Origin: Bacteroidales bacterium | Lineage (GTDB): Bacteria; Bacteroidota; Bacteroidia; Bacteroidales; WCHB1-69 | NCBI GenBank assembly: GCA_017650305.1 | Contig: JAGCFD010000048.1 | Span: 1 to 33,805 of the forward strand | DNA: 33,805 nucleotides | Reading direction: 5' to 3' | Part shown: piece after piece, positions 18,679 through 33,607 of the stretch | Position numbering within the stretch: the first letter of the stretch is position 1 | How the letters are laid out: every line of letters begins with the position of its first letter | The notes under the pieces: model-generated | What the model saw: the letters and a program-made list of their open reading frames with translations, nothing else | Databases searched by the model: none | What the model was told of the DNA's origin: nothing | Made by a program: the position numbers and the translations under genes

Positions 18679-21600
18679 TTACTGAGATAACATCAGTCGC
18701 AGGGCGATACCGGTCTCGAAGTTCATGTTGTTGTATTGGTTCTGAACTTTCGGTCTGTTGATAGTTTGATCGTAGTAGAATTTGATGCCTACCATTTGGC
18801 TGAATTGGTATTCGGCGGCGACATTGATAGTTGCGGTGAGAGTACCAGCGGTCACTTGGTCTTGAAGTTCCTGGATCTTGCGCAATTGGGTGGAGTTGTT
18901 TTTGATGCCGACACCGGCGGTTAGATTCAGGTCACTGACAAACTGGCGTTTTTGTCCGGCGAAGACCAGGCCGACCTTGAGGTCTTTGAAACGGTAGCCG
19001 CCAGAAACGGCAAGTTCATAGCTGGCAGATTCGGTAATCTGATTGTTGGTGAAGCTGATAGCCACGTTGCGTGATTGTTTGTACTCTACTTTGAGTAGTA
19101 AGCTGTTGCGCAGTGTCATGTCGAAGCCGATAAGCGGTGCGAATTGTTCTGACAGGGCAATCTGGTTCAATTCCTCGCGTGGGATGAAGTCTCCCAGAGC
19201 GTTCAGTGCGCCGCCGCCATCAACATAGGCGAGGTTGGTGGCGAAACCGCCGATCTGGTATGTGCAGGTGTAGCTGTGTGCGATTGAGAGGCTTTGGAAC
19301 ACTTTGTCGATGCCTTTGATTTTGGAGAAACCATTGTAGGTCAGGCGCCAGTTGGGCAGCGGGATTTTCAGGAATGGGGTGGAGAGATCCATCTTCTCGG
19401 CATCCTTGCCCATGTAGGCAGAAAAGAAAGCGCCCATAAGAACATCTTGTGACACTTCGCTATAGCCTTCCGGGAAACCAGTCTCGGGATTTACCTCACC
19501 AGAGTAGTTTTCATTAGCCTCGGCAAGACGATTGGCGATGAGAAGACGTACATCCCGGAAATCTTCAAAGAGTTGGTTGTAGTCTTTGAAGAATGTCTTC
19601 AAGCCGCAATAGGTCATGCTGAAGGAGCCGTTTCTTTGCGGGGTATAATGATAAAGCACACCTTCTTCATCCACGTGGAAATATTCGGAGTAGTTTTCGG
19701 TGTAACGGCGAGTGGCTGACACTTCGATACGGAAGTCGCGGAACGGTTCTATGGTGGCCCTCAGATTGAGGTTCTCATTCATTGTTCGCTGGTAGGCAGT
19801 GTTCATCAACGAGTCTGTGGTGAGCCAGTGGTTTGCAGCGCCAATGGCTTGCACGTCTGGTTGGCCACCAAAGACGAACAGGAAGCCAGGAGACTTGTCG
19901 TGGAGGTCGATACCGAACAGTTTGGGTGTTCCCATATATCCTGGCAGCGTGGTACCCGAACCTCTTGTGTAGTTGGCGGATACGTTACGTACCATCATGA
20001 TGAAACGCAGGGTCCCGTCCAGAATGATCTTTCCATAGTTGGGTTTCTCCAAAGAGTCCTTGGCATTTTTGGCTTCTTCTCTATCTTCTTTCTTTTGATT
20101 TTTGTCCCTTAAGGTGCTTTGATTTTGATTCTGAGGTTTCCGGTTGCTGCCCTGGTTCACCTTTTTCAGGTAGGGAATGTTGTTGTACAGAGTTACAAAG
20201 TTCACATTGGCGTTGCCCTGGATATTGTTGGAGTTCTGGATGGTGTTACCCAGGTATGCCAATGAGAGGGCGGATGCGGTAAATTGGTAGGTGGACTGGT
20301 AGCGGACATTGGCGGTGATCCAGTTGAACAAAGGTATTTTGTTGATAGGAAGCTGGTAGGTGCCGCTGAATACTTGTCTGTAGTCGGTGGTGCGTCCGCC
20401 GCGGCCTATGTTGTGCCAGATGGAGTCTTTTTCCAGTCTGGTCTCAATGCGTCCGTCTGGTTCGTCGATGCGGGCGGAGGCATCGGCTCTGAATTCCAGT
20501 TTCAAGCTTTGGAAGATATCCCAGTTGAGGGCGTAGTTACGCGTCCAGTCGAAGGTCTTCACATAGCTGGTGTCCACGATGATGTTGCCTTGGCTCTTTG
20601 GACGGTATTTGAACTCTTGCAACTCTCTGCGCAGGGAGGTTCTTATCACCACATTTTTGGGCATCGGTGTGATGTTGAAGTCGCGAATCAGCTGCAGCCA
20701 CTTGTTGCGCGTCCACTTCATCTTGCTGAAAGGACGGTAGTTCTTCGGGTTGGTGCTGAAGGTATAGCCCAACTCGCCGTCATGTTTATATTCATTGTTC
20801 ATCTCCAGATCCACATCTCGTTGTATCAACTCTGAATAGGAGTAGGAGAAGTCCAGGTTTTCAATATCCCATGGATGCATCTTGGATCCGCTTTCAAAGT
20901 TGCGTTCCTTTCGGACATTCATGAGGTTGATGTTTTGCCGTTGAGTAAAGGAGGTAGTCATCTTGCGGAGGGAGTCGCGCTCTTCAGCGCTTTCGCATAA
21001 TGCCAGATCTTGTTGCAACTTCACGTCAGGATTCAGGGGGTTGTACTCCGGCATGGCCATACCCATGGAGTAGTCGTAGTGGAATGGGATTTTGATATTC
21101 CACTTCTCTGGGAAGAAGAGTTTTCCACCGTCGATATTGGTAGCGACATCGACGTTGATGTTGGTCTCGTGAGAACGTTCGGTTACCGACTGCTCAATTC
21201 CGCCGAAGCCTGGGGTGGAGTAGGTTCCAGACACGGTGATGTCACCCACGTCGGCTATGTTCATGCGGGCGCGCAACAGAGCGGCTACGCCTTGTCTGTC
21301 ATCAAAGCCGACCAGTCGAAGTTCGTTGACCCAAACCTCCACGGATTTAGCCTCCATGTCATCATTGTCTATGACGCTTTGTTTCTTTGGGTTGCGGATA
21401 CCGATCATGATGGTTGTAACATCAGCAAGGTTGGGGTTGCCGACCACGGTCATTCTGTTGCCTCCCTCCAATATCTTAGTGTAAGGAATCAGATTGCTGG
21501 CCAAGTCACCATGTCTGACAGCCAGGTTACGTTCAATCTTCATAGCCACTAAGGAGTCGAGATCGATGACCATGTTGTTGGCTAACGGCCAGATGGCGAG

Positions 21601-24600
21601 GGTGTCCTTGCCCACACCCCAAGGGGTGATCTCCACCGGAATCTCATATTCATAGAAGTTGTCGGTGAAGTCGGAACCCAATCGGATGAAGGTGGTGATG
21701 TCACCCTTTTGGAGGTCGTTGGAGCTGCGTACGGACTCTGCGTGGATGGACATTTGAATGGTTCTGAAGTTTCGGAGGTCGTAAGCAGTGCTTTTGTAAA
21801 CGGCACGGGCGTCACCATCTTCCAAATCAATGGCCTTCATGGTAAGAGACTGCTCGTTGATTTGGCGGATAGTCAAGCCTGCAATAGTCTCGCGTTCGAT
21901 GCCCGGCGGCAACAGGTAAGGGATGGGCGTTCTGTTGGAGTTCTCCTCATAACTGACCGTACCGACGTAGAAAGAGCTTTCGCCGTCACCTTGCGAGGGA
22001 ATATAGTCGCCCTCTTCGCGCAGACTCAGGTTGTATGTGCGCCAGTCGCTGCGCACCAGCTCGAAGGTGGCGAAACGGCAGATGACGGGTTCCTCAAAAC
22101 CGCGTAAGAACATACGCATAAAACGTATGGAGTTGAAACCGGAAATGTTGTTGACAACCTTGTCGGGATTATGGATCGGGATACGGAACTGATACCACTT
22201 GGTAGTCAGTCGCTCGCCATTAGGTAGCGGGGAGGAGACAGCCTCATAGACGTCGTTGATGTAGTTCTCGCCCACCACCATGTGTTCCGGAGACAGGTTG
22301 ATAACGTATTGGTAGTATTTTTCATCCTCGCTGAGGGTGTTGTCGTTGTTCATATCCTCCAGGTTGGGCAATGGAGTGGCGGAGGTGGGGTAATTCTCGG
22401 GACTTTGGTTGTCAGTAGGGGAGTTGCCATCGGCATTATTATAATATTTGTATCGTTCCACGAGCTTGATATCCGCTGCATCATAGTCTGATCCTCTGAA
22501 ATAGTGGTAGTTGTCATTGGAGGGGTCAGATATTGCCTTAAGATAGGCCCCAGAGGTGTTGCCGTATGTGTTGGCGATAAGCTGGAGGTAGGAGTCGTTG
22601 AAAAATTGACGCTCACTGTCATCGCGTAAACCATCATAACCCACATCTTGGTTGAGACGAGATTCTTCCTCCAAATCGAATGCGTTGACAATCTGCTGTA
22701 CGGTTGGCACACGGCCCCAAGCCGTGTACTCTATGTTTTCATCGCTGCCGTCAGCAGGTAGCCCGCTCTCAAAGGATTTCATACCATCACGCAAGATGTC
22801 CTCGGAGATATCTCCTAAGTTAAAGTAGAGTTTACCACCCGAATGGGTCTCGTTGTTGATGAAAGGATCCATCATCCAGAACTCAATATATTCGTAGTTG
22901 GATGACTCGAAGTCGGTGTTGTCGAACTTACGCATGATACCAGCCCAACGAGACCTGGGGTCGCGCAGGGAGCCGTCATCGTTGATACCTTGGGAGTATC
23001 CTTCTGAACCGGTCACATCATAGTTGTACGGACCCTTTTCAGAGGGATAATAAGCCAAGTTGAAAACCGGCATGTAGGTGGAGATGGTAGTACCATCGTA
23101 TTCTTTGTATGGGAAGAGCTCCGGCTCATAGACGGCACGGGCGTACGGGTCTGAAAGATCCTCTGCGGTCAAGTTGGACGGTGTGGCGGAATTGCCATTG
23201 TAGAAAACGGACTGGTCTACAATGTACCAAGAAAGATGGGCACGGTTGTAACCGTATGCCAGCTGTTTGCGAGGATTGTCGGTGACGGAAAGGACACCGG
23301 CCTCAGGGAAGATGTCAGGCTGCCCTTGTGGCGTGGAGGCCAACACCCAGTTGGCAAAGGTGTTCAGGTTGATGGTTGTCTTAGACGCCTCGAAATTGTC
23401 GATGTATGTGATGCCCTGTTTGCCGATGGCACGAGAATGACCCGGAACAAAATGGGCAAACTCACCCTCCAGATTCAAGAAGGACTGGGTTGTTGTGCTG
23501 TGGAAGGAGAGCAGGTCTACCGCTCTAGTGACGAACGGAAGCTCCGTCTTATAGGCGAAGTTCATTCCCCAAATGAAATTGTTGATGGGCTCGTCGCCGT
23601 AGTTGACCTTGTTGGTGATGGGCCGCTCTCTCAGATTCATAAGGGTGGCACCGATGTTGAAGTTCGGAGAGAATGTGTAGTCTAAGTTGGCTCCGAAGAG
23701 ATATTGGTCTGTGCCATATTCATCTTCCGGCTCCCAGGTGATGTTGATGGGAGTTCCGGAATTGAGATAACCTTGGTTGATGATGGAAACGGTACCCATG
23801 TCGTAGTTGACCGTGTAGTCCACATTTTCCTGGAGGGTGATACCACCAGCGGTGACTTTGACAGAGCCTTCTGCCACATTTGTGGTGGGGATTCGGAATT
23901 CGGAACCGTAGGAGGAGCGGTAAGTACCTTCGATGTAGAACTTGTTTTTGTTGGTGATTTGCTGCGCCATCGTCTTGGTCATCGTGTAGAGGGAGTCGAA
24001 GGCGTATTTTTCAGCCAGCTCCGGTTCGGTGATGACAGCTCTCAAGTCTTTGCCGAAAGGTTCGACGGTGGGGAAGTAGATGCGACCGTTGGAGGAGTTG
24101 ATGGTACCTCCCACAGTAGCCGCATTGTCGATGAAGTCGAAAATACCATCAGGGTTGGGGTCTTGCTGTTGGTTCAAACGGTCCAAGCCTAACAGTCGAA
24201 TCAACGGGATGCCCTGCTCGGAGCCTTGGGTGAAGAAGCCGTTGGGTACACCTTCTGCATCACCAGTATAGAGAACATTCAGACGGAATTTCTCATTGGA
24301 AACCTGATATGCGGAAAGGCTATATACATTCTTCATCATGAGTTTCCAGAGTGGAGACTTGGTGTTGGTGTTGCTGCTCTTCAGCAATTTCACGCGGATA
24401 CATTCAGGGGCGGTCACTTCGTTGGAGAATTCACCGACCTGATAGACTTTATCATCACCGATAACAGTGTATTGGAAGGCAACGGCCAGCACCTGGTCTG
24501 AATTCAATGCGGAGTTCAGAGAGATGAAACCCAATTTGGTGTTGACGGTGTATTCGCTGGGACTGAGCAGTCGGGCACTTTCGAGTTTCTCATAGTTCTT

Positions 24601-25971
24601 GCCAGAGGTCAAACCGATGGAGTGCATGTTGGCGGAAACGGTTGAAAGGTTGCGGTACAGGGATGTATCCACCAGCATCATCAAGTTGTTGATCTGGTCG
24701 TCAGGATATTGCCCGCCGTCGTACATGGGGTTGTATGAGAAGGAGGCAAATTCGGGATCGGCCTCACCCAAGTCGGTGAAGGCGACGATGTTGCGGTTCT
24801 CATTGGTGGCGGCACCGATGGTGGTGCGCCAGACCTCTATTTTAGTGATGACGATGGGGGAGCCGACGAGCGGCAGTGTGCTCAGATAATCGTTGTAGTG
24901 ATCGCGGAAAAACTGGGCTAAGAAGAAGTGACGGTTTTCTTCGTATTCGTCAGCACTGAAATAGAACTCCTCTTCTGCTGCGCCATTGGTGATGGCGGCA
25001 CTTTGGGTGGCGCCCTTCTTCTGGGCTGCCACACCCGTAATGGTCAGGTTGCCGAACTTGAACTGTCCCTTTACACCAAAGAGGTTCTGGCTTCCCGTGA
25101 TCAGGGTGCTGTTGAGCGGCATCGTCACATTACCGAACTCTATCAACTGCAAGATCTCATCTTCCTTGCCGGCATATTTCAACTTCATAAGGTCGTTGTT
25201 GGTACCGACTTGCAGCTGGTTGGTTGCATAGTTGAGGTTGAACTCGATCTTTTCGCCAACTCGCGCAATCATGTTGAGCTGGATGTCCTGGTCAAAATCA
25301 AAGTCGGTGTGCCTCCTCTGTTTGACAGGCAGAGAGTAGTTTTGGGTCCGGTTGTGCTTGACGCCGAATTTCACCTCGATATTACCAGACGGGCGGATGT
25401 CAATGGTGTTGCTGCCGAAGATGCTCTCGAAGAGATCGCCGCCAACGTGCAGTTCCGGTATCAGGCCACCGCCGCCAGTGCGTTTGCCAGAAGCGCCCAC
25501 ACTGTTGGAGTGCCAATAGTTTTCAATGCTCTGTTGGAGATCGTAGTCGATGTACTCGTTGATATCCATGTAGGCGCCCGGTCCGAATGGCACGTCGCCA
25601 GTCTGATATTGAAACTCGTAAGTGTTGGTCTCGGGATTGTATTGGATGACAGTGCCAACACCAGGAGGGTTTTGCAGATAGAAAGGACTATAATGCGGGT
25701 TGCTCAACGGATTGTTGTCGGGTTGGGGCACACCGGACTCCTCGTTGGAGTCGGGAGGTGTGATGGGACGATTGGCCATGGCAGCCATCACATAATCCGT
25801 GGAAACAATAGTGTCAGAAGAGTTGACAGTCGCCTCCTCGTCACCCTGTGGAGCGCGAATCGATGAGTGTTGCATTCTTGCGTTGGCAGCATATCCTATG
25901 GTGAAAAAGACACACAAGGATGCAAGTGCCAATGCGCAGTAGAGTATTTTGTTGAGACTTATCTTTTTCAA
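18679..25971 (-). CDS. sprA: SprA, giant outer-membrane translocon of the type IX secretion system
   Basis: 2430 residues with an N-terminal signal sequence (ILYCALALASLCVFFTIGYA). SprA is known to form a very large single-chain 36-strand beta-barrel that exports proteins carrying T9SS C-terminal domains, with PorV and Plug at its openings. Family marks visible here include GGDLFESIFGSNTIDIRPSG, QDIQLNMIARVGEKIEFNLN, the FGVKGQFKFGNLTITGVAAQ region, GITYIDNFEASKTTINL, VEVWVNELRLVGFDDRQG and the terminal FETGIALRLMLS. The length is in the SprA/Sov range. ruvA lies 9 bases upstream on the same strand, so sprA is almost surely cotranscribed from the ruvA promoter; this linkage is seen in other Bacteroidota. 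No frame breaks seen. Confidence 0.97.
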   Translation of the reverse strand: MKKISLNKILYCALALASLCVFFTIGYAANARMQHSSIRAPQGDEEATVNSSDTIVSTDYVMAAMANRPITPPDSNEESGVPQPDNNPLSNPHYSPFYLQNPPGVGTVIQYNPETNTYEFQYQTGDVPFGPGAYMDINEYIDYDLQQSIENYWHSNSVGASGKRTGGGGLIPELHVGGDLFESIFGSNTIDIRPSGNIEVKFGVKHNRTQNYSLPVKQRRHTDFDFDQDIQLNMIARVGEKIEFNLNYATNQLQVGTNNDLMKLKYAGKEDEILQLIEFGNVTMPLNSTLITGSQNLFGVKGQFKFGNLTITGVAAQKKGATQSAAITNGAAEEEFYFSADEYEENRHFFLAQFFRDHYNDYLSTLPLVGSPIVITKIEVWRTTIGAATNENRNIVAFTDLGEADPEFASFSYNPMYDGGQYPDDQINNLMMLVDTSLYRNLSTVSANMHSIGLTSGKNYEKLESARLLSPSEYTVNTKLGFISLNSALNSDQVLAVAFQYTVIGDDKVYQVGEFSNEVTAPECIRVKLLKSSNTNTKSPLWKLMMKNVYSLSAYQVSNEKFRLNVLYTGDAEGVPNGFFTQGSEQGIPLIRLLGLDRLNQQQDPNPDGIFDFIDNAATVGGTINSSNGRIYFPTVEPFGKDLRAVITEPELAEKYAFDSLYTMTKTMAQQITNKNKFYIEGTYRSSYGSEFRIPTTNVAEGSVKVTAGGITLQENVDYTVNYDMGTVSIINQGYLNSGTPINITWEPEDEYGTDQYLFGANLDYTFSPNFNIGATLMNLRERPITNKVNYGDEPINNFIWGMNFAYKTELPFVTRAVDLLSFHSTTTQSFLNLEGEFAHFVPGHSRAIGKQGITYIDNFEASKTTINLNTFANWVLASTPQGQPDIFPEAGVLSVTDNPRKQLAYGYNRAHLSWYIVDQSVFYNGNSATPSNLTAEDLSDPYARAVYEPELFPYKEYDGTTISTYMPVFNLAYYPSEKGPYNYDVTGSEGYSQGINDDGSLRDPRSRWAGIMRKFDNTDFESSNYEYIEFWMMDPFINNETHSGGKLYFNLGDISEDILRDGMKSFESGLPADGSDENIEYTAWGRVPTVQQIVNAFDLEEESRLNQDVGYDGLRDDSERQFFNDSYLQLIANTYGNTSGAYLKAISDPSNDNYHYFRGSDYDAADIKLVERYKYYNNADGNSPTDNQSPENYPTSATPLPNLEDMNNDNTLSEDEKYYQYVINLSPEHMVVGENYINDVYEAVSSPLPNGERLTTKWYQFRIPIHNPDKVVNNISGFNSIRFMRMFLRGFEEPVICRFATFELVRSDWRTYNLSLREEGDYIPSQGDGESSFYVGTVSYEENSNRTPIPYLLPPGIERETIAGLTIRQINEQSLTMKAIDLEDGDARAVYKSTAYDLRNFRTIQMSIHAESVRSSNDLQKGDITTFIRLGSDFTDNFYEYEIPVEITPWGVGKDTLAIWPLANNMVIDLDSLVAMKIERNLAVRHGDLASNLIPYTKILEGGNRMTVVGNPNLADVTTIMIGIRNPKKQSVIDNDDMEAKSVEVWVNELRLVGFDDRQGVAALLRARMNIADVGDITVSGTYSTPGFGGIEQSVTERSHETNINVDVATNIDGGKLFFPEKWNIKIPFHYDYSMGMAMPEYNPLNPDVKLQQDLALCESAEERDSLRKMTTSFTQRQNINLMNVRKERNFESGSKMHPWDIENLDFSYSYSELIQRDVDLEMNNEYKHDGELGYTFSTNPKNYRPFSKMKWTRNKWLQLIRDFNITPMPKNVVIRTSLRRELQEFKYRPKSQGNIIVDTSYVKTFDWTRNYALNWDIFQSLKLEFRADASARIDEPDGRIETRLEKDSIWHNIGRGGRTTDYRQVFSGTYQLPINKIPLFNWITANVRYQSTYQFTASALSLAYLGNTIQNSNNIQGNANVNFVTLYNNIPYLKKVNQGSNRKPQNQNQSTLRDKNQKKEDREEAKNAKDSLEKPNYGKIILDGTLRFIMMVRNVSANYTRGSGTTLPGYMGTPKLFGIDLHDKSPGFLFVFGGQPDVQAIGAANHWLTTDSLMNTAYQRTMNENLNLRATIEPFRDFRIEVSATRRYTENYSEYFHVDEEGVLYHYTPQRNGSFSMTYCGLKTFFKDYNQLFEDFRDVRLLIANRLAEANENYSGEVNPETGFPEGYSEVSQDVLMGAFFSAYMGKDAEKMDLSTPFLKIPLPNWRLTYNGFSKIKGIDKVFQSLSIAHSYTCTYQIGGFATNLAYVDGGGALNALGDFIPREELNQIALSEQFAPLIGFDMTLRNSLLLKVEYKQSRNVAISFTNNQITESASYELAVSGGYRFKDLKVGLVFAGQKRQFVSDLNLTAGVGIKNNSTQLRKIQELQDQVTAGTLTATINVAAEYQFSQMVGIKFYYDQTINRPKVQNQYNNMNFETGIALRLMLSQ

Positions 25972-29041: not shown

Positions 29042-29119
29042 GGATCGGTAGTTCAGTTTGGTTAGAATACATGCCTGTCACGCATGGGGTCGCGAGTTCG
29101 AGTCTCGTCCGGTCCGCCA
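29042..29119 (+). tRNA. tRNA-Asp (anticodon GTC), CCA encoded
   Basis: The acceptor stem GGATCGG (29042-29048) pairs with CCGGTCC (29109-29115), with one T-G wobble. The anticodon stem CATGC/GCATG encloses the loop CTGTCAC with GTC at 29077-29079. The T arm is GCGAG, TTCGAGT, CTCGT. G73 and an encoded CCA end the gene. It is complete and should be functional. It serves as the integration target: its last 20 bases, counted with the next A, recur at 30140 and 31616. Confidence 0.97.
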
Positions 29120-29120
29120 A
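29101..29120 (+). repeat. att-like direct repeat, copy 1 (inside the tRNA 3' end)
   Basis: AGTCTCGTCCGGTCCGCCAA, from the T loop through CCA and one further A. It is identical to copies at 30140-30159 and 31616-31635. The last two are also preceded by CTT, whereas the tRNA has TCG there. Confidence 0.92.
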
Positions 29121-29122
29121 AG

Positions 29123-29167
29123 AAAAACCTCACAAGTCATTGAAAAACAGACCTATGAGGTTTTTTT
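29123..29167 (+). terminator. Terminator 1, directly after tRNA-Asp
   Basis: ACCTCA (29127-29132) pairs with TGAGGT (29156-29161), extended by A/T pairs, with a loop of 23 bases and seven T. It differs in sequence from the terminators after att copies 2 and 3. Confidence 0.7.
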
Positions 29168-29175
29168 ATGTCCAA

Positions 29176-29209
29176 AAAAATGCACCAAAAATGCACCGAA
29201 CTTGCTGAC
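29176..29209 (+). repeat. Left-end block of island 1: tandem AAAAATGCACC and AACTTGCTGAC
   Basis: AAAAATGCACC is repeated exactly head to tail at 29176-29186 and 29187-29197, followed by AACTTGCTGAC at 29199-29209. Positions 29185-29209 match 30214-30238 in island 2 at 22 of 25 bases. They could be arm-type recombinase sites; they could also be eroded coding sequence, since several differences fall on codon third positions when read on either strand. Confidence 0.6.
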
Positions 29210-29220
29210 AGAGTGTGATT

Positions 29221-29586
29221 TGTGGACAAGTAGTCACCAAGTAGAGGGACTGATAGTCGAAACGATAAACTAAATGATGGGATAATGATGGGTTAAAGAA
29301 GAATATGATTGAGGGACTAAGTAATGTCCTAAGTAGGGACCAAGTAGGGACTAAGTTGAGATTAAGTAGGGACCAAGTAGAATATTTGCTTACAAGTATG
29401 AAACAGGCCTCACCTGCTGCAGAGATTCGGAAATTAATGGGGATGACCAATGCAAGCAAGTTCAAAAAACATTATCTGGATACGCTTTTGGAGATGGGCG
29501 TGATTAAGATGACGCAACCCGATTCTCCAAACAGTCCCACGCAACGGTATGTGCTCACGGAGGAGGGGCGGAAGCTGCTGGAATGA
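29221..29586 (+). pseudogene. 3' fragment of a winged-helix C-terminal domain (Fic/AlbA_2-type ATP-binding protein tail), broken
   Basis: An open stretch from 29305 to 29586 could encode 93 residues: LSRDQVGTKLRLSRDQVEYLL (linker, given here as repeats of LSRDQV), then a winged-helix segment with LMGMTNASKFKKHYLDTLLEMG and PTQRYVLTEEGRKLL. This resembles the C-terminal end of the Fic or AlbA_2/RecG-like regulators common in Bacteroidota; the catalytic part is missing. In the same frame upstream, 29221-29244 reads CGQVVTK followed by TAG where the intact unit has TTG (Leu), and more stops follow, so the gene is decayed. The short stretch from the Met at 29305 might still be translated as a small DNA-binding protein. 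Family assignment is from memory of the pattern, not from a search. Confidence 0.65.
29228..29380 (+). repeat. 11-bp periodic repeat AAGTAGGGAC(C/T)
   Basis: Units start at 29331, 29342, 29353, 29364 and 29375, exactly 11 bases apart; three of them are the perfect ten bases AAGTAGGGAC. Two more AAGTAG cores at 29228 and 29239 are also 11 apart. The third unit is AAGTTGAGATT, whose TTG replaces TAG and keeps the reading frame open. Confidence 0.75.
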
Positions 29587-29662
29587 TTCATTGTATCACA
29601 GAAAACTCAAAGAGAAAAAAAATATTAAAAACCATATTGTCTTTTTAATGCATCTAACAATA

Positions 29663-29884
29663 ATGAAAAAGAAGAGTGTGACAAAAAGTGAAATCATTTT
29701 CTTTGTTTGTTTGTTTCTTTTTTACTTGTTATCAAGTATCTTGTTATTGCACAACTTTGAGTTTCTCGGACACGCGCCTTTAACGTGGGAAGAAATCAAA
29801 AAAGAAATGTGGAAATTCGTTGTCGTTTGTGTAATAGGGTCTTTTATTGTTACATTTGAGATACAAGACTATCTGAGGAAATGA
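29663..29884 (+). CDS. Small two-helix membrane protein, cargo of island 1
   Basis: 73 residues from the Met at 29663 (MKKKSVTKSEII). An in-frame Met at 29648 is an alternative. Helix 1 is about IIFFVCLFLFYLLSSILLL (11-29), then a loop with APLTWEEIKKEMW, and helix 2 is FVVVCVIGSFIVTF (about 51-64), with a basic tail. No homology recognised. The surrounding DNA is AT-rich compared with the chromosomal genes. A small membrane protein as lone cargo could be a toxin, an immunity protein or unrelated; nothing in the sequence decides. Confidence 0.6.
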   Translation: MKKKSVTKSEIIFFVCLFLFYLLSSILLLHNFEFLGHAPLTWEEIKKEMWKFVVVCVIGSFIVTFEIQDYLRK

Positions 29885-30139
29885 TGGAATATTGGATTCC
29901 AAATTTTTTTGCTATTCCTTTCCGTGAAGGATAATTGAACAAATTTTCCAGAATCTTCACCCCGTGCATTTTTCAACCCCTAAAAAAATGCACCGCCACG
30001 ATAAGAAGGCGTCATCTTGCTAACCCTTACACCGTGTGTTCTTTTTACTAATTGTGCGTATTTTGCTGGTGTTCATTTATTTGCAAGGTAATTAAATGAA
30101 TACGAACAACTGCAACATTCAAGTGCAACGAACAATCTT
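29885..30139 (+). other. Non-coding right part of island 1
   Basis: No credible reading frame. It contains a strong hairpin at 29964-29993 and two copies of ACGAACAA (30102-30109 and 30128-30135), 26 bases apart, just before att copy 2. Together with the non-coding left end of island 2 this makes 485 bases without a gene. Confidence 0.6.
29964..29993. repeat. Inverted AAAAATGCAC pair (hairpin)
   Basis: GTGCATTTTT at 29964-29973 pairs perfectly with AAAAATGCAC at 29984-29993 around a 10-base loop. It is the same word as the tandem repeat at 29176-29197, so island 1 has two direct copies at its left end and an inverted pair near its right end. No T-run follows, so it is not a standard terminator. 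Confidence 0.7.
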
Positions 30140-30159
30140 AGTCTCGTCCGGTCCGCCAA
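30140..30159 (+). repeat. att-like direct repeat, copy 2
   Basis: Identical 20 bases to the tRNA-Asp 3' end at 29101-29120, with CTT upstream as in copy 3. It forms the junction between islands 1 and 2. Confidence 0.92.
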
Positions 30160-30160
30160 G

Positions 30161-30196
30161 AAAAAAGAGATGCATTTCATTGCATCTCTTTTTTTT
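30161..30196 (+). terminator. Terminator 2, directly after att copy 2
   Basis: GAGATGCA (30167-30174) pairs with TGCATCTC (30181-30188) around the loop TTTCAT, flanked by A6 and eight T. It is a textbook bidirectional terminator. Confidence 0.9.
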
Positions 30197-30213
30197 ATTC
30201 CCAAGATAAAGCG

Positions 30214-30238
30214 CCAAAAATGAACCAAACTTGTTGAC
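30214..30238 (+). repeat. Left-end block of island 2, matching island 1
   Basis: CC, AAAAATGAACC, A, AACTTGTTGAC; 22 of 25 bases equal 29185-29209. It begins 55 bases after att copy 2; in island 1 the block begins 65 bases after att copy 1. Confidence 0.65.
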
Positions 30239-30307
30239 TGGCAAAAAGATAAGGAGACGGAACTGCTATCTTCGTAAGTGGGTATAACTTTATATTTATA
30301 AATTTTG

Positions 30308-30334
30308 TATTTTTGCAGCGAACAACATTGTTCG
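30308..30334 (+). promoter_or_regulatory. -7 box (TATTTTTG) with a palindrome over the transcription start of the ATPase gene
   Basis: TATTTTTG at 30308-30315, then CGAACAA (30319-30325), CA, TTGTTCG (30328-30334). The 16-bp near-palindrome covers the expected start of transcription and is well placed as an operator. CGAACAA also occurs at 30103 and 30129. This box lies over a possible TTG start at 30313, which argues for the ATG at 30370. Confidence 0.65.
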
Positions 30335-30369
30335 TTTCAAATGAACAACTTTACAACAAACTGATAAAT

Positions 30370-31584
30370 ATGATATTACAGCAGACTATTGATCAAGTAA
30401 TACAAGAATGGCACGATAGAATCTCTACGGATGAGACAGGAATCGTACGAGAAAAGACTATCCCATTGGGTAGTATTGCTTCACATGCCACCGTCATCAG
30501 CGGCATCAGGCGTTGTGGGAAAAGTACCTTGCTTGCCCAACTCTACCGTCAACTTCCCGAACCTGCATTGTACATCAACTTTGAGCATCCTCTGCTGATG
30601 GACTTCGCCATGAACGATTATGCCCGCCTTGATAATGTCATCGCGAAATATAATGCCCAATGGCTCCTGTTCGACGAGATTCAATCATTGCCTAATTGGG
30701 AGGTTTATGTGCGACAGAAATTGGATAATCATTATAAAGTTGTAATTACCGGTTCCAATGCCTCTTTGTTAAGTCGGGAGTTGGGTACCCACCTTACCGG
30801 CAGGCACATTCAGATGGAACTTTTCCCATTCTCATATACCGAATTTCTGAAACTGAAATCTCAAACAGCTTCATACGAATCCTTCCACGAATATCTGTTT
30901 GCCGGAGGTTTTCCCGAATATTTGAAGACTGGAGACATACAGCAACTCACAACACTGTTTCAGGATATTCTCTACCGCGACATTATTGTGCGGTACGGTA
31001 TCAAGGAAGTGTCATCCCTGCAAAGGTTGGCAAATTTCCTTATGCAGAATGTCGGCAACAAATTCTCAGCTTCAAAAATTAAACAAGCAATCTCCGTAAA
31101 TGCCACCAATACCGTTTTGAACTGGTGTAATTATTTGGCAAACAGTTATTTGTTTTTATTTGTCGAGAAATACAGTTACTCTGTCCGCTCGCAAATGGTC
31201 AGTCCAAAAAAAATATACGCCGCTGATACCGGACTTGCCTACTCGCTTTCCACCCATTCCATGACAGACGAAGGACACCTTTTGGAAAATCTTGTTTACA
31301 TTGCATTGAGAAACCAATATCCGCACATCTGTTATTTTGAAGGGAAAGGTGAATGTGATTTTGTGGTGGTGGAAAAAGGAACTCCCTCGCAATTGTTACA
31401 AGTATGTGCCGAACTAAATGCTGATAACCTGCATCGTGAAACGACAGGCATAGAAGAAGCAATGCGTACATTCTCCATTCATAATGGGCTGATTATCACA
31501 GAAAACCAAACCGACACGATCCAAACTGATACAGGTACAATTGAGGTGCTGCCATTTTGGAAATGGAATATGGATAATCAGTAA
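30370..31584 (+). CDS. AAA ATPase (AAA_14-type) with DUF4143-type C-terminal domain
   Basis: 404 residues from the ATG at 30370; a longer frame from TTG at 30313 starts inside the promoter and is rejected. Walker A is GIRRCGKST (45-53), Walker B LLFDEIQ (99-105), and a sensor-like VVITGSNAS follows, then LTGRHIQMELFPFSYTEFL, typical of this family. A winged-helix segment (ASKIKQAISVNATNTVLNWC) and the DUF4143-like end with GKGECDFVVVEKG and LLQVC come next. The latter resembles a PD-(D/E)xK nuclease core, but the expected (E/Q)xK lysine appears replaced by Cys, so cleavage is doubtful. The cellular role of this widespread family is not settled. It is the only gene of island 2. Confidence 0.9.
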   Translation: MILQQTIDQVIQEWHDRISTDETGIVREKTIPLGSIASHATVISGIRRCGKSTLLAQLYRQLPEPALYINFEHPLLMDFAMNDYARLDNVIAKYNAQWLLFDEIQSLPNWEVYVRQKLDNHYKVVITGSNASLLSRELGTHLTGRHIQMELFPFSYTEFLKLKSQTASYESFHEYLFAGGFPEYLKTGDIQQLTTLFQDILYRDIIVRYGIKEVSSLQRLANFLMQNVGNKFSASKIKQAISVNATNTVLNWCNYLANSYLFLFVEKYSYSVRSQMVSPKKIYAADTGLAYSLSTHSMTDEGHLLENLVYIALRNQYPHICYFEGKGECDFVVVEKGTPSQLLQVCAELNADNLHRETTGIEEAMRTFSIHNGLIITENQTDTIQTDTGTIEVLPFWKWNMDNQ

Positions 31585-31615
31585 ATGATAACCCTATCTT
31601 GAAAAAGAGAAGCTT

Positions 31616-31635
31616 AGTCTCGTCCGGTCCGCCAA
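31616..31635 (+). repeat. att-like direct repeat, copy 3 (distal, chromosomal junction)
   Basis: Identical 20 bases to copies 1 and 2. If the islands entered one after the other, this copy and the terminator after it are the likely original tRNA-Asp tail. Confidence 0.92.
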
Positions 31636-31639
31636 CAAA

Positions 31640-31672
31640 AAAAAGAGAGTGATCATCATCATTCTCTTTTTT
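31640..31672. terminator. Terminator 3, directly after att copy 3
   Basis: AGAGAGTGAT (31644-31653) pairs with ATCATTCTCT (31658-31667) with one G-T wobble, loop CATC, flanked by A-run and T-run. It can work on both strands and may also end the minus-strand ClC transcript. Confidence 0.85.
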
Positions 31673-31755
31673 ATTTTCCGAAATCTTGCAGGAAGAATGA
31701 CAAACGGGGACTTTTTGTTACCCTCAATGGTCATAATTCAAAGTCAGGCTCAAGA

Positions 31756-33543
31756 TCAGTCTTCCGATTCGGCGGCGATGAACGACTGGTATTCCGCCAG
31801 AAACCGTGCCTTGGAGACGAAGCCGATGTATTCGCGGTCGCGAGAGATAATCGGCATGTTGAAGTTGCCGGTGCGGTTGAACTTTTCCAGCACGGCGGTC
31901 GCTGTATCATCGTCATAGATGAACTCGCCAGGGTCGATCATCAAGTCCTCGACTAACAGGGTGTCGTATTTCGACTGGTCGAAGATGGTTGGCCGGTGGT
32001 CATCCATCACCAACAATCCCTCGAAATGGTTGGCATCGTCGGTTACGACAAACAGATTGCGCTTGCTGCGGGCGATGAGTTCCGTATAGGTGCGGAGGGT
32101 GCTGTGGATGGGGATGGTGAGGATGTTGGTGTCGATGATCTTGTTCCACTGCAGTTTGCGAAGGGCGTATTTGTCTTTGTTATGGGTTTTCAGGTTGTCC
32201 TTTTCGGCAAGATGGTAGGTATAGATGGAATATTTCTCAAATGGATGGACACTGATGTAGGAGCAGGTGGCGGTAATCATCAGCGGGATAAGCAGGGTGT
32301 AGCCACCGGATAGTTCCGCAATCAGGAAGATGGCCGTCAGGGGAGCCTGCATGATGCCGGTCATGACGCCAGCCATGCCTGCCAACACGAAATTGGCGGT
32401 CGGCACGTCCCAGGGAAGGAACTGCTGCGCCATGAGGGCGACAAAGAGCCCGACGAAGGCGCCGATGAACAGGGAAGGCGCGAACACACCGCCCACACCG
32501 CCGGAGGAGGTGGTCAAGGTGGTGGCGAAGACCTTCAGCATGAAGATGCCAAGAACACCCAGCAACAAAGCGTGGGGCCGCTGGAAGAACTCCGAGAGCG
32601 GAGAATTGGAAAACAGATGGTTGAAGTCCCCGTTGATGATGGAGTTTATGCTGTTGTAACCCTCTCCGAAGAATGTCGGGAAAAGACAGATGAAACCACA
32701 GAGCATCAGGCTGCCGATGATGGCCCGCGCGTATATGTTGTGGAGGCGCTTCATCTGACGGTCTATCCAGCGTGATGTGCGCAGAAAGAAGACCGACACT
32801 AACCCCGTGAGCAGTCCCAACACGATATAAAGCGGAATGTTGCCCATCAGGAATGTCTGCGTGGGATCGAAGGTGAACATCACCGTCTTGCCCCAGAAGA
32901 GCAGCGACATGACCGTTCCTGTTATGGCGGAGATGAGCAACGGCAGGATGGCGCTGCCCGTCAGGTCGAGCATCAACACCTCGAAGGTAAAGACGAGCGC
33001 CGCGATGGGAGCTTTGAAGATGGCTGCCATGGCCGCTGCAGAACCGCACGCCAGCAACAAGGTGGTGTGCTTGCTGTTCATCTTGAAGAATCGGCCGACG
33101 TTGGAACCGATGGCCGAGCCCGTCAGCACAATGGGCGCCTCCAGTCCCACTGAACCGCCAAAACCCACCGTGATGGAACTCGCCACCATGGAGGAATAGA
33201 CGTTGTGAAAACGCAACTTGCCGTCACTCTTGCAGATGGACTTCAAGACAATGCTGACCCCATGACTCAAGTCATCTCGTACAATCTTTTTCACAAACAG
33301 CAAGGTGAGCAGGATGCCGATCGGAGGGAAAATCAGATACAGGTACTTGACAGCCAAGTAGGCGAAGATCTTGCTGACCGCTATGGAGGTGAGGTGCAGC
33401 AGATTCTTGATGACCACCGCTGCGGTTGCCCCCAAAATGCCTATCAAGCCACTCAATATCAAGATGATACCCCTGGAGCTAAAGTGTTTCTCCAGAAATT
33501 TCCTGAAACGGACAAACCGATATAACTGCTTATGATAACGCAT
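31756..33543 (-). CDS. ClC-family chloride channel/antiporter with C-terminal CBS domains
   Basis: 595 residues from the Met at 33543. An in-frame Met at 33570 is rejected because a minus-strand -7 box covers 33560-33567. The ClC membrane domain (about 25-430) has GGSVGLEAPIVLTGSAIGS with the gating Glu at 135, FKAPIAALVFTFEVLMLDL, SSGGVGGVFAPSLFIGAFVG and MAGVMTGIMQAPLTAIFLIAE, where the last is a typical helix-N region. Two CBS domains follow (about 455-590: NILTIPIHSTLRTYTELIA and VEDLMIDPGEFIYDDDTATA). The usual GSGIP loop reads LSHGVSIV, a variant. Channel or proton-coupled exchange cannot be decided from sequence alone. It converges on the island region and stands alone. Confidence 0.93.
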   Translation of the reverse strand: MRYHKQLYRFVRFRKFLEKHFSSRGIILILSGLIGILGATAAVVIKNLLHLTSIAVSKIFAYLAVKYLYLIFPPIGILLTLLFVKKIVRDDLSHGVSIVLKSICKSDGKLRFHNVYSSMVASSITVGFGGSVGLEAPIVLTGSAIGSNVGRFFKMNSKHTTLLLACGSAAAMAAIFKAPIAALVFTFEVLMLDLTGSAILPLLISAITGTVMSLLFWGKTVMFTFDPTQTFLMGNIPLYIVLGLLTGLVSVFFLRTSRWIDRQMKRLHNIYARAIIGSLMLCGFICLFPTFFGEGYNSINSIINGDFNHLFSNSPLSEFFQRPHALLLGVLGIFMLKVFATTLTTSSGGVGGVFAPSLFIGAFVGLFVALMAQQFLPWDVPTANFVLAGMAGVMTGIMQAPLTAIFLIAELSGGYTLLIPLMITATCSYISVHPFEKYSIYTYHLAEKDNLKTHNKDKYALRKLQWNKIIDTNILTIPIHSTLRTYTELIARSKRNLFVVTDDANHFEGLLVMDDHRPTIFDQSKYDTLLVEDLMIDPGEFIYDDDTATAVLEKFNRTGNFNMPIISRDREYIGFVSKARFLAEYQSFIAAESED

Positions 33544-33559
33544 GATTTCAATGAAGGCG

Positions 33560-33567
33560 CAAATGTA
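33560..33567 (-). promoter_or_regulatory. -7 box (TACATTTG) for the ClC gene
   Basis: Minus-strand exact TAnnTTTG, 17 bases upstream of the preferred ATG at 33543. Confidence 0.65.
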
Positions 33568-33607
33568 CATAAAAATTGTTATGCCTCAATATTCTGCGTG
33601 TTTTTTG

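Follow-up and report, generated by a model that had tools for sequence, protein, structure and literature searches.

The segment that follows the tRNA-Asp gene near the right end of the window (the whole stretch of DNA analyzed here, 33,805 bp) very likely consists of two small units in tandem, each an integrase-less derivative of a genomic island specific for tRNA-Asp. They resemble CIMEs, would have arisen by decay and site-specific accretion and could be moved by the integrase of a related island.

Organization of the array

An exact search of the window for the last 20 nt of tRNA-Asp gave three copies; from shuffled sequences, 0 would be expected. Given the position of the tRNA gene (Table 1), the first copy is the tRNA 3' end and the second and third copies are displaced ends. 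The three copies enclose unit 1 (1039 bp) and unit 2 (1476 bp), both free of integrase genes. After every copy comes a hairpin with a T-run, and the three hairpins differ from one another. A simple consensus terminator scan of the window, in contrast to the folding result, found 0 terminators (expected from shuffled sequences, 2.4); the likely cause is that the A/T stem swallows the T-run. Terminators after the core were genus-wide, being found at 47 of 48 core copies. The simplest reason would be that every unit once adjoined the tRNA, whose termination it then had to provide. Hairpin 3 is probably the original tRNA-Asp terminator, as judged from the similar sequence after the last core in the relative G018.

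Table 1. Features of the tRNA-Asp segment, in window coordinates.
Feature	Position	Strand	Basis
tRNA-Asp (GTC), integration target	29042..29119	+	ARAGORN, Rfam RF00005
att core copy 1, at the 3' end of the tRNA; unit 1 starts here	29101..29120	+	exact repeat
Terminator-like hairpin 1	29119..29172	+	fold z -3.7
Left end block of unit 1	29161..29209	+	sequence comparison
Putative arm sites for the integrase: AAAAATGCACC motif in two direct copies	29176..29197	+	absent from middle of 17/17 units
ORF of 93 aa: C-terminal piece (Fic-like_C, winged-helix) of Schlafen-AlbA_2/HATPase_c_4 protein	29305..29586	+	Pfam; relatives
111-aa ORF, no assigned function; clusters with ORF in G018 unit	29549..29884	+	ORF clustering
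Unit 1 right end (RE), conserved, about 170 bp	29963..30139	+	common to units with unrelated cargo
att core copy 2, boundary between unit 1 (on its left) and unit 2 (on its right)	30140..30159	+	exact repeat
Terminator-like hairpin 2	30158..30202	+	fold z -8.1
Left end block of unit 2, degenerate, with a single arm-like motif, AAAAATGAACC, at 30216	30190..30238	+	sequence comparison
Integrase-deletion junction stretch of unit 2	30239..30271	+	comparison with relatives
404-aa AAA_14/DUF4143 ATPase, intact; PADLOC candidate PDC-S01	30370..31584	+	Pfam, PADLOC
Unit 2 right end, lacking an RE	31585..31615	+	same junction in G039
att core copy 3 (attR): 3' end of the original tRNA, now displaced, adjoins chromosomal flank	31616..31635	+	exact repeat; comparison with relatives
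Terminator-like hairpin 3	31634..31680	+	fold z -7.0
ClC-type channel gene, right chromosomal flank	31756..33570	-	Pfam; comparison with relatives

The two units carry unrelated cargo. Their left blocks were identical at 22 of 25 positions (29185-29209 versus 30214-30238) and 82% identical over 49 nt, and no other match between the units was found beyond this block and a 34-bp inverted hairpin match. No recombinase or integrase was detected in either unit by Pfam search of the three cargo ORFs or by tblastn with the integrase of the relative G030. Thus, what the initial annotation had reported from the sequence, that is, three exact tRNA-end copies, a distinct terminator after each, unrelated cargo behind a shared left block of about 25 bp and no recombinase in either unit, was confirmed throughout. 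Direct repeats next to their parent gene could also be produced by local duplication or be chance repeats of the tRNA end. With no copy expected by chance, unrelated cargo between the copies, and both empty sites and homologous islands in relatives, this explanation is extremely improbable and was rejected.

Unit 1 retains the left motifs, the RE and the core at both boundaries. At positions 29125-29210 (86 bp) it was 97.7% identical to the island of G030 that has an integrase, at the left end of that island, and the RE of unit 1 starts with an inverted pair of arm motifs (29963-29973 on the minus strand, with one mismatch, and 29984-29994 on the plus strand). As cargo, unit 1 has no more than one gene fragment and one small ORF; the corresponding Schlafen-AlbA_2/HATPase_c_4 protein is found at full length, about 500 aa, at the tRNA-Asp site of relatives. 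The interior of unit 1 was 97.9% identical to G018 over 797 bp, while the identity of der between the two genomes was 84.3%. This match ends short of both unit ends, making unit 1 a mosaic.

Unit 2 delivers one candidate defence ATPase. In G030, G026 and G005, the counterpart of its junction stretch lies between the left end and the stop codon of the integrase gene; in unit 2 the stretch continues into the ATPase leader, and the same junction was found in G001, G003 and G039. As unit 2 lacks an RE, its attR is retained as the core only.

The tRNA-Asp site in the genus

Our comparison set consisted of 40 genomes of the genus, which comprises uncultured Bacteroidales, including the window's own genome (G000). 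The exact core was present in 32 of them, with two to three copies in seven (the two of G033 on separate contig ends), and absent from eight; the site comparison was drawn from the genomes with the core. Arrays were cut by contig ends in several relatives, among them G003, G016, G022, G026, G033 and G039. In the search of related genomes suggested by the initial annotation, the core with a terminator was found across the genus, at a recurrent integration site that was empty in some genomes, had an island with a full integrase in one and had islands with integrase fragments or, in many cases, integrase-free units in others. The sites of G032, G010, G024 and G002 are empty by comparison with the occupied ones of G027, G005 and G035, whose right flanks contain genes of the same clusters; among genomes of the lineage that has the ClC gene as right flank, like the window, none was seen empty. 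Like site-specific tRNA islands, the array shows a restored target 3' end, a direct repeat at the far end and, in relatives, an empty site; unlike them, the window's units have no integrase of their own. The comparison with relatives supports the earlier proposal of site-specific integration at the tRNA 3' end, with stacked units of core, terminator, left end and cargo.

The full-length tyrosine integrase (446 aa) was found in a 10.2-kb island of G030. Of the other integrase-bearing relatives, G005 and G007 contain fragments and G026 is cut at a contig end. All four have the same left core as the window's units and a similar left end. The integrase at this site is lost in graded steps (446 aa, 214 aa, 47 aa and none), and the cargo of one family is truncated from about 500 to 93 aa. 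Moreover, cargo families are common with integrase-carrying islands, that of unit 1 with G030 and that of unit 2 with G005. Given that the cargo of unit 1 is truncated and found at full length elsewhere, and that integrase islands carry the same cargo families, the units descend from larger integrase-bearing islands. The initial annotation had reasoned that larger islands of this kind in relatives would make the units only deletion remnants. This holds for their origin, with G030 and G005 having larger islands that carry an integrase or a fragment of it together with the same cargo families. It does not hold for their spread, because integrase-deleted forms are common to several species.

Among 17 units with both boundaries, 14 had no match to the G030 integrase, two had a fragment and one had the full length. 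Thirteen of the 17 were 1-5 kb in size. The RE was present in 15, including unit 1. The AAAAATGCACC motif was found at an end in 15 units and in the middle of none, and the left arm motif was missing in 12. Given these 12 and the missing RE of unit 2, not all units may be substrates. The prevalence of integrase-free units (14/17), most with a conserved right end and some spread, would also fit an undescribed class of minimal satellites that lack an integrase by design rather than by degeneration from larger islands. That reading is quite improbable: the integrase island of G030 has the same ends and cargo family at the same site, and the partial integrases form a series.

The proposal that the units are moved by an integrase encoded elsewhere was upheld in part. 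Relatives have an integrase with matching ends, but the genome of the window itself, which is 84.65% complete, yielded no integrase of the tRNA-Asp type. A phage or plasmid vehicle was rejected: the RE pattern matched 0 IMG/VR contigs, and the integrase gave one distant match in IMG/VR (28% identity) and matches at < 60% identity on 27 plasmid records. The core was found in IMG/VR on one 330-kb contig, as part of a complete tRNA-Asp gene among clustered tRNA genes; over 4.9 kb of this contig, the match to the genus loci was confined to that tRNA. The integrase had no match among solved structures.

The comparison supports the first two steps of a scheme in which an island would insert by recombination between the 20-bp tRNA end and its own matching core, using a tyrosine integrase whose gene points toward the tRNA, which would restore the tRNA and bring in a terminator. 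Internal deletions would then remove the integrase and most of the cargo, with the cores kept in both units and both ends kept in unit 1. Further units may accrete successively at the same core. Finally, shared deletion junctions and core-bounded identity suggest that the integrase of a related island in the same cell may move units between genomes, singly or as a block with a neighbor.

Sharing of units between species

Unit 2 was 93-95% identical in G039, G001, G005 and G003, and the identities of der were only 74, 79, 78 and 77%, respectively. G005 shares only the ATPase part, and the integrase-deletion junction is common to four species: G000, G001, G003 and G039. At its right junction, unit 2 of G039, whose two contigs were linked by a 55-bp overlap, matches that of the window up to a degenerate core in G039, and the neighbors differ beyond it. 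An integrase-free 2.8-kb unit was 98.7% identical between G015 and G026, which share only 81.6% identity in der; this match begins at the core, and the left neighbors differ (the tRNA versus the end of another unit). In G012 and G015, the 2.8-kb unit with its upstream flank was 90.1% identical and der 90.6%, so the unit is as similar as the chromosome and was inherited vertically there. Taken together, these sequence comparisons suggest that integrase-free forms have been passed from species to species.

It is possible, though the less favored view, that the units are dead remnants of integrase islands that decayed in place in each lineage, the integrase-free forms being immobile. The graded truncation of cargo and integrase, the lack of an integrase in the window's own genome and of an RE in unit 2 all agree with this. 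The shared deletion junction in four species, at identities well above those of der, and the core-bounded unit of G015 and G026 argue against it. Alternatively, site-specific recombination may play no part in the spread of units, which would instead be taken up as DNA and incorporated by homologous recombination, with the tRNA region and neighboring units as anchors. The tRNA and about 40 nt upstream of it are conserved genus-wide, unit ends are mosaic, and the match between G008 and G014 extends about 98 bp into the tRNA region, so that this route could explain some of the sharing. It is unlikely as the general explanation, in that the G015 and G026 match starts at the core despite different left neighbors and the G000 and G039 match stops at the core, where the neighbors differ.

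Divergence of the RE was correlated with that of the flank gene when only homologous flanks were compared (Mantel r 0.445, p 0.010; 11 units, with G030, G038 and G020 dropped and with G009 and units without an RE already left out). The RE is thus not independent of host descent. An earlier run with 14 units gave r 0.00 but included a non-homologous flank (G030). In 45 of 54 pairs among the 11 units, and in 56 of 65 among the 14 units, the RE nevertheless had diverged less than the flank gene.

Relation to known elements

Interpreted as site-specific island derivatives, the units belong to a known kind of element, for which the ssrA islands of Dehalococcoides are a comparison, and they form no new class. 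The initial annotation had suggested an undescribed class; tandem islands, some without an integrase, that have a 20-bp tRNA or tmRNA end at their borders are described for Dehalococcoides (PMC3146451) and Methylophilaceae (PMC10872708), and the CIME is a named concept (PMC5704250). According to the passages on CIMEs, these have lost the genes for integration and transfer, keep attL and attR and stack in tandem at integration sites, including tRNA ends (PMC5704250). Similar to CIMEs, units 1 and 2 lack integration and transfer genes, have identical 20-nt cores at all three boundaries and derive from an integrase-bearing element, as indicated by the left end and cargo shared with G030 and the cargo shared with G005. 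Different from CIMEs, the parent is a small integrase island in which no conjugation genes were seen, and unit 2 has lost its right arm. For cis-mobilization the evidence is circumstantial: in G026, one contig has an integrase at tRNA-Asp and another has a unit free of it.

The Dehalococcoides ssrA islands, as presented in passages of PMC3146451, are tandem, with a 20-bp repeat of the RNA gene end and a conserved motif beside it; the integration module is missing in 15 of 31, and the authors suggest CIME status. They involve a serine recombinase, ssrA and rdhA cargo, whereas the genus studied here has a tyrosine integrase, tRNA-Asp, units of mostly 1-5 kb and defence-like cargo. The additive flexible genomic island at tRNA-Lys of Methylophilaceae consists of variable units of 330 bp-42 kb with 1-63 CDS (PMC10872708); it belongs to another phylum and tRNA, and the passages on it describe no conserved right end or terminators. 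Tycheposons are portrayed as tRNA-bordered cargo islands with a tyrosine recombinase (PMC10872708, PMC11389934) of 4-200 kbp (PMC10872708). The likeness to them is in the tRNA border and the tyrosine recombinase, and no helper/satellite relation is claimed. By analogy, integron cassettes and CALINs, in the account of PMC11389934, also are small cargo units with a recombination site, form integrase-less arrays and may be served by an enzyme in trans. Their sites are attC, whereas the att site here is a tRNA end, and membership is not claimed.

We tentatively consider, as a broader and rather doubtful possibility, a genus-wide cassette system anchored at tRNA-Asp, in which integrase-free units of one to a few genes in ruminant-gut Bacteroidales would be shuffled in trans by rare integrase islands, integron-like for single-gene defence candidates. 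If an integrase does act on these units in trans, a pool of tiny defence-like units throughout the genus would be served by a single rare enzyme. This would explain the spread of single genes at tRNA sites without visible mobility genes, as well as why integrase-based searches would miss most such units. Even on the ordinary reading, the site provides a clear series of island decay, from full integrase to fragment to none. Units of such a system would each have the core, a terminator and usually the conserved right end.

Organization of the tRNA-Asp array

The array behind tRNA-Asp probably consists of tandem units similar to cis-mobilizable elements (CIMEs), which keep their att ends and have lost the genes for integration and transfer. 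Three exact copies of the 20-nt core were found, as in the initial annotation, where none is expected by chance, and the first is the 3' end of the tRNA. The left block said to be shared between units 1 and 2 was recovered as 49 nt with 82% identity, and their cargo was unrelated as annotated, with different Pfam domains. The 93-aa ORF of unit 1 matched Fic-like_C and its 111-aa ORF had no Pfam match. The 404-aa ORF of unit 2 contained AAA_14 and DUF4143 and was assigned by PADLOC to the candidate PDC-S01 (E = 3.8e-109), a label mentioned in a paper about bovine rumen antiviral defence, in the text available (PMC13356809). Unit 1 also contains imperfect 11-bp tandem repeats (AAGTAGGGACC-like), located after its left end and ahead of its first cargo ORF; part of these repeats is matched at a similar position in the relative G007.

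Features of the window and of other extracted loci (L) and contigs (C)
Feature	Sequence	Position	Remark
tRNA-Asp	Window	29042-29119	
Core copy 1	Window	29101 (start)	
Core copy 2	Window	30140 (start)	
Core copy 3	Window	31616 (start)	
Unit 1	Window	29101-30139	
Left end of unit 1	Window	29125-29210	Compared with G030
11-bp tandem repeats	Window	29227-29380	
Unit 2	Window	30140-31615	
2430-aa ORF	Window	18679-25971	Minus strand
AbiEi/AbiEii-type unit	L040	6337-8768	Also in L062
Right-end homologue	L132	8221-8440	
Right-end homologue	L133	9118-9320	Minus strand, coordinates oriented
Right-end homologue	L134	718-930	Minus strand, coordinates oriented
Right-end homologue	G000, C23	10527-10659	Window's own genome
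tRNA-Met recombinase	L051	6519-7842	Window's genome, C55
tRNA cluster	L196	4513-4589 (tRNA-Asp)	IMG/VR contig

The insertion site and unit ends in related genomes

The exact core was found in 32 of the 40 genomes of the genus, the window's own included, and at the family level it was confined to this genus (32/104 genomes). The loci of all 32 were examined. Empty sites were identified in G032, G010, G024, and G002, where the sequence after the tRNA resembled that after the last core in the occupied genomes G027, G005, and G035, with right-flank gene clusters also in common. No empty site with the window's own ClC flank was seen among these loci. Units with both boundaries numbered 17, from 15 of the 32 genomes, and ranged from 688 to 10,214 bp; some of their boundary cores had 1–2 mismatches or a small indel, and that of G004 was only partial.

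A hairpin and a T-run lay downstream of all three copies in the window, in line with the terminators annotated there; unlike this result, a consensus terminator scan of the window reported none. Among 48 core copies (at most 2 mismatches, 60 nt available downstream), 47 had downstream a hairpin that folded better than shuffled sequences (z below -2) together with five or more consecutive T; the sole exception was a degenerate copy in G038. Because a tRNA regaining its end from an island would need a terminator, each unit would bring its own, which would serve that tRNA. A REP-like hairpin (GTAGAGACGCAATGCATTGCGTCTCTAC and variants) just after the core acts as the terminator after many cores (L039, L041, L053, L064, and others). 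GTAGAGACG or its complement was counted 38 times across loci totalling 434,708 bp, and was absent from the window.

Despite differing cargo, 15 of the 17 units, including unit 1, had a conserved right end (79–176 aligned bp, 83–91% identical to unit 1), of which only the last 79 bp were matched in G005 and G009; unit 2 had no such end. The last 25 bp or so before the core occurred in two variants. In unit 1, two copies of AAAAATGCACC inverted relative to each other open the right end, and the left end has two in direct orientation. The 33.8-kb window contained five occurrences of AAAAATGCACC (at most one mismatch) against 1.1 expected, and each lay at a unit end. Across the 17 units, 15 had the motif at an end, none had it in the middle, and only five had left motifs. 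These motifs are putative integrase arm sites. The right-end pattern matched 13 contigs, all from uncultured Bacteroidales MAGs, 8 of which carried a ruminant label (yak, sheep, water buffalo, red deer). Diverged homologues also adjoined another core (AATCCCTCTCTC...), which resembles a tRNA-Ser 3' end, and are perhaps sister islands at another tRNA. One more was found in the window's own genome, where a recognisable core was absent.

Integrase loss and sharing across species

At the start of the 10.2-kb G030 unit lies the gene of a 446-aa tyrosine recombinase (domains Phage_int_SAM_5 and Phage_integrase), which reads toward the tRNA; the far core of this unit had one mismatch. This integrase had matches in 9 of the 40 genomes at E <= 0.001. 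Close copies (over 85%) were confined to G030, G026, G005, and G007, of which those of G005 and G026 were partial and that of G007 was a fragment of about 47 aa; none was found by this search in the window's own genome. That genome had three other tyrosine recombinases, one of which (408 aa) directly follows tRNA-Met and probably marks another island there. No match to the G030 integrase was present in 14 of the 17 units, including the two of the window, in agreement with their initial annotation as integrase-free.

A protein of 491–509 aa was encoded at the site in G027, G030, G031, and G038, with SLFN_AlbA_2, HATPase_c_4, and Fic-like_C in the G027 copy. Shorter ORFs of the same cluster were found in G009 (200 aa), G004 (174 aa, with only HATPase_c_4 of these domains), G018 (154 aa), and G020 (135 aa), and the window's fragment is the 93-aa ORF. 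Moreover, the left end of unit 1 was 97.7% identical to that of G030. Given this truncation series and left-end identity, unit 1 would most simply have arisen by deletion from an island that carried an integrase. The alternative raised initially, that the units are only deletion remnants, agrees with this origin, G030 combining an integrase with the same cargo family, but fits less well with integrase-free forms common to several species.

Unit 2 was 94% identical in G039 and G001, 93% in G005, and 93 and 95% in two pieces of G003, whereas identities of the housekeeping gene der (EngA) to the window's genome were 74, 79, 78, and 77% for G039, G001, G005, and G003, respectively. The same deletion junction, at which the stretch adjacent to the integrase stop runs into the ATPase leader, was found in the window's genome, G001, G003, and G039; in G005 the ATPase sits within an island bearing an integrase fragment. 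On a second G039 contig, which overlaps the first by 55 bp, the right junction of unit 2 was reproduced as far as a core carrying three mismatches, followed by a different neighbour. Similarly, a 2.8-kb integrase-free unit was 98.7% identical between G015 and G026 (der, 81.6%), the match beginning at the core, a changed terminator hairpin aside, though the left neighbours differ. Across 797 bp, the interior of unit 1 shared 97.9% identity with G018 (der, 84.3%), with both ends different. As a counter-case, the 2.8-kb unit was only as similar between G012 and G015 as their chromosomes are (90.1% with upstream flank; der, 90.6%). A further counter-case is an AbiEi/AbiEii-type unit that was 99.1% identical between two species (G008 and G014; flanks, 92–93%); because the match reaches into the tRNA region, recombination over the tRNA is possible in this pair.

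Known systems, mobility and cargo

Comparison of these sequences supports the target, the core, the empty sites, the integrase-bearing relatives, the deletions, and the cross-species sharing. An integrase from another island would be supplied in trans or in cis and would act at arm sites at the unit ends. Unit 1 or units like it may still be mobile today, which is at best about as likely as not. The units had been proposed as an undescribed class. In the portions available of the cited sources, however, CIMEs are defined and tandem structures formed by decay and accretion are described (PMC5704250); the Dehalococcoides ssrA islands are, like the tRNA-Asp array, tandem with a 20-bp repeat, lack an integration module in 15 of 31 cases, and were suggested to be CIMEs (PMC3146451); and the last 20 nt of tRNA-Lys are similarly repeated in Methylophilaceae, with units as short as 330 bp (PMC10872708). 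The architecture is therefore already known. For this particular array, no description was found in a targeted search of open-licence literature at the level of titles and abstract starts.

In a Pfam scan of 30 proteins from the relatives' loci and PADLOC on 10 proteins (five clear matches, one weak match to Argonaute-type models, four without match), the cargo of other units and loci included AbiEi/AbiEii, a second PDC-S01 ATPase, a YhcG nuclease (PDC-S02), a PIN-domain protein, and a SIR2-like protein scoring just below its cut-off; these labels are family names assigned from sequence.

A 330-kb IMG/VR contig has, within a tRNA cluster, a tRNA-Asp whose last 20 nt are those of the att core; this gene might be an alternative target on a large phage. 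Elsewhere in the window, a 2430-aa ORF adjoins ruvA and may encode an SprA-type secretion protein.
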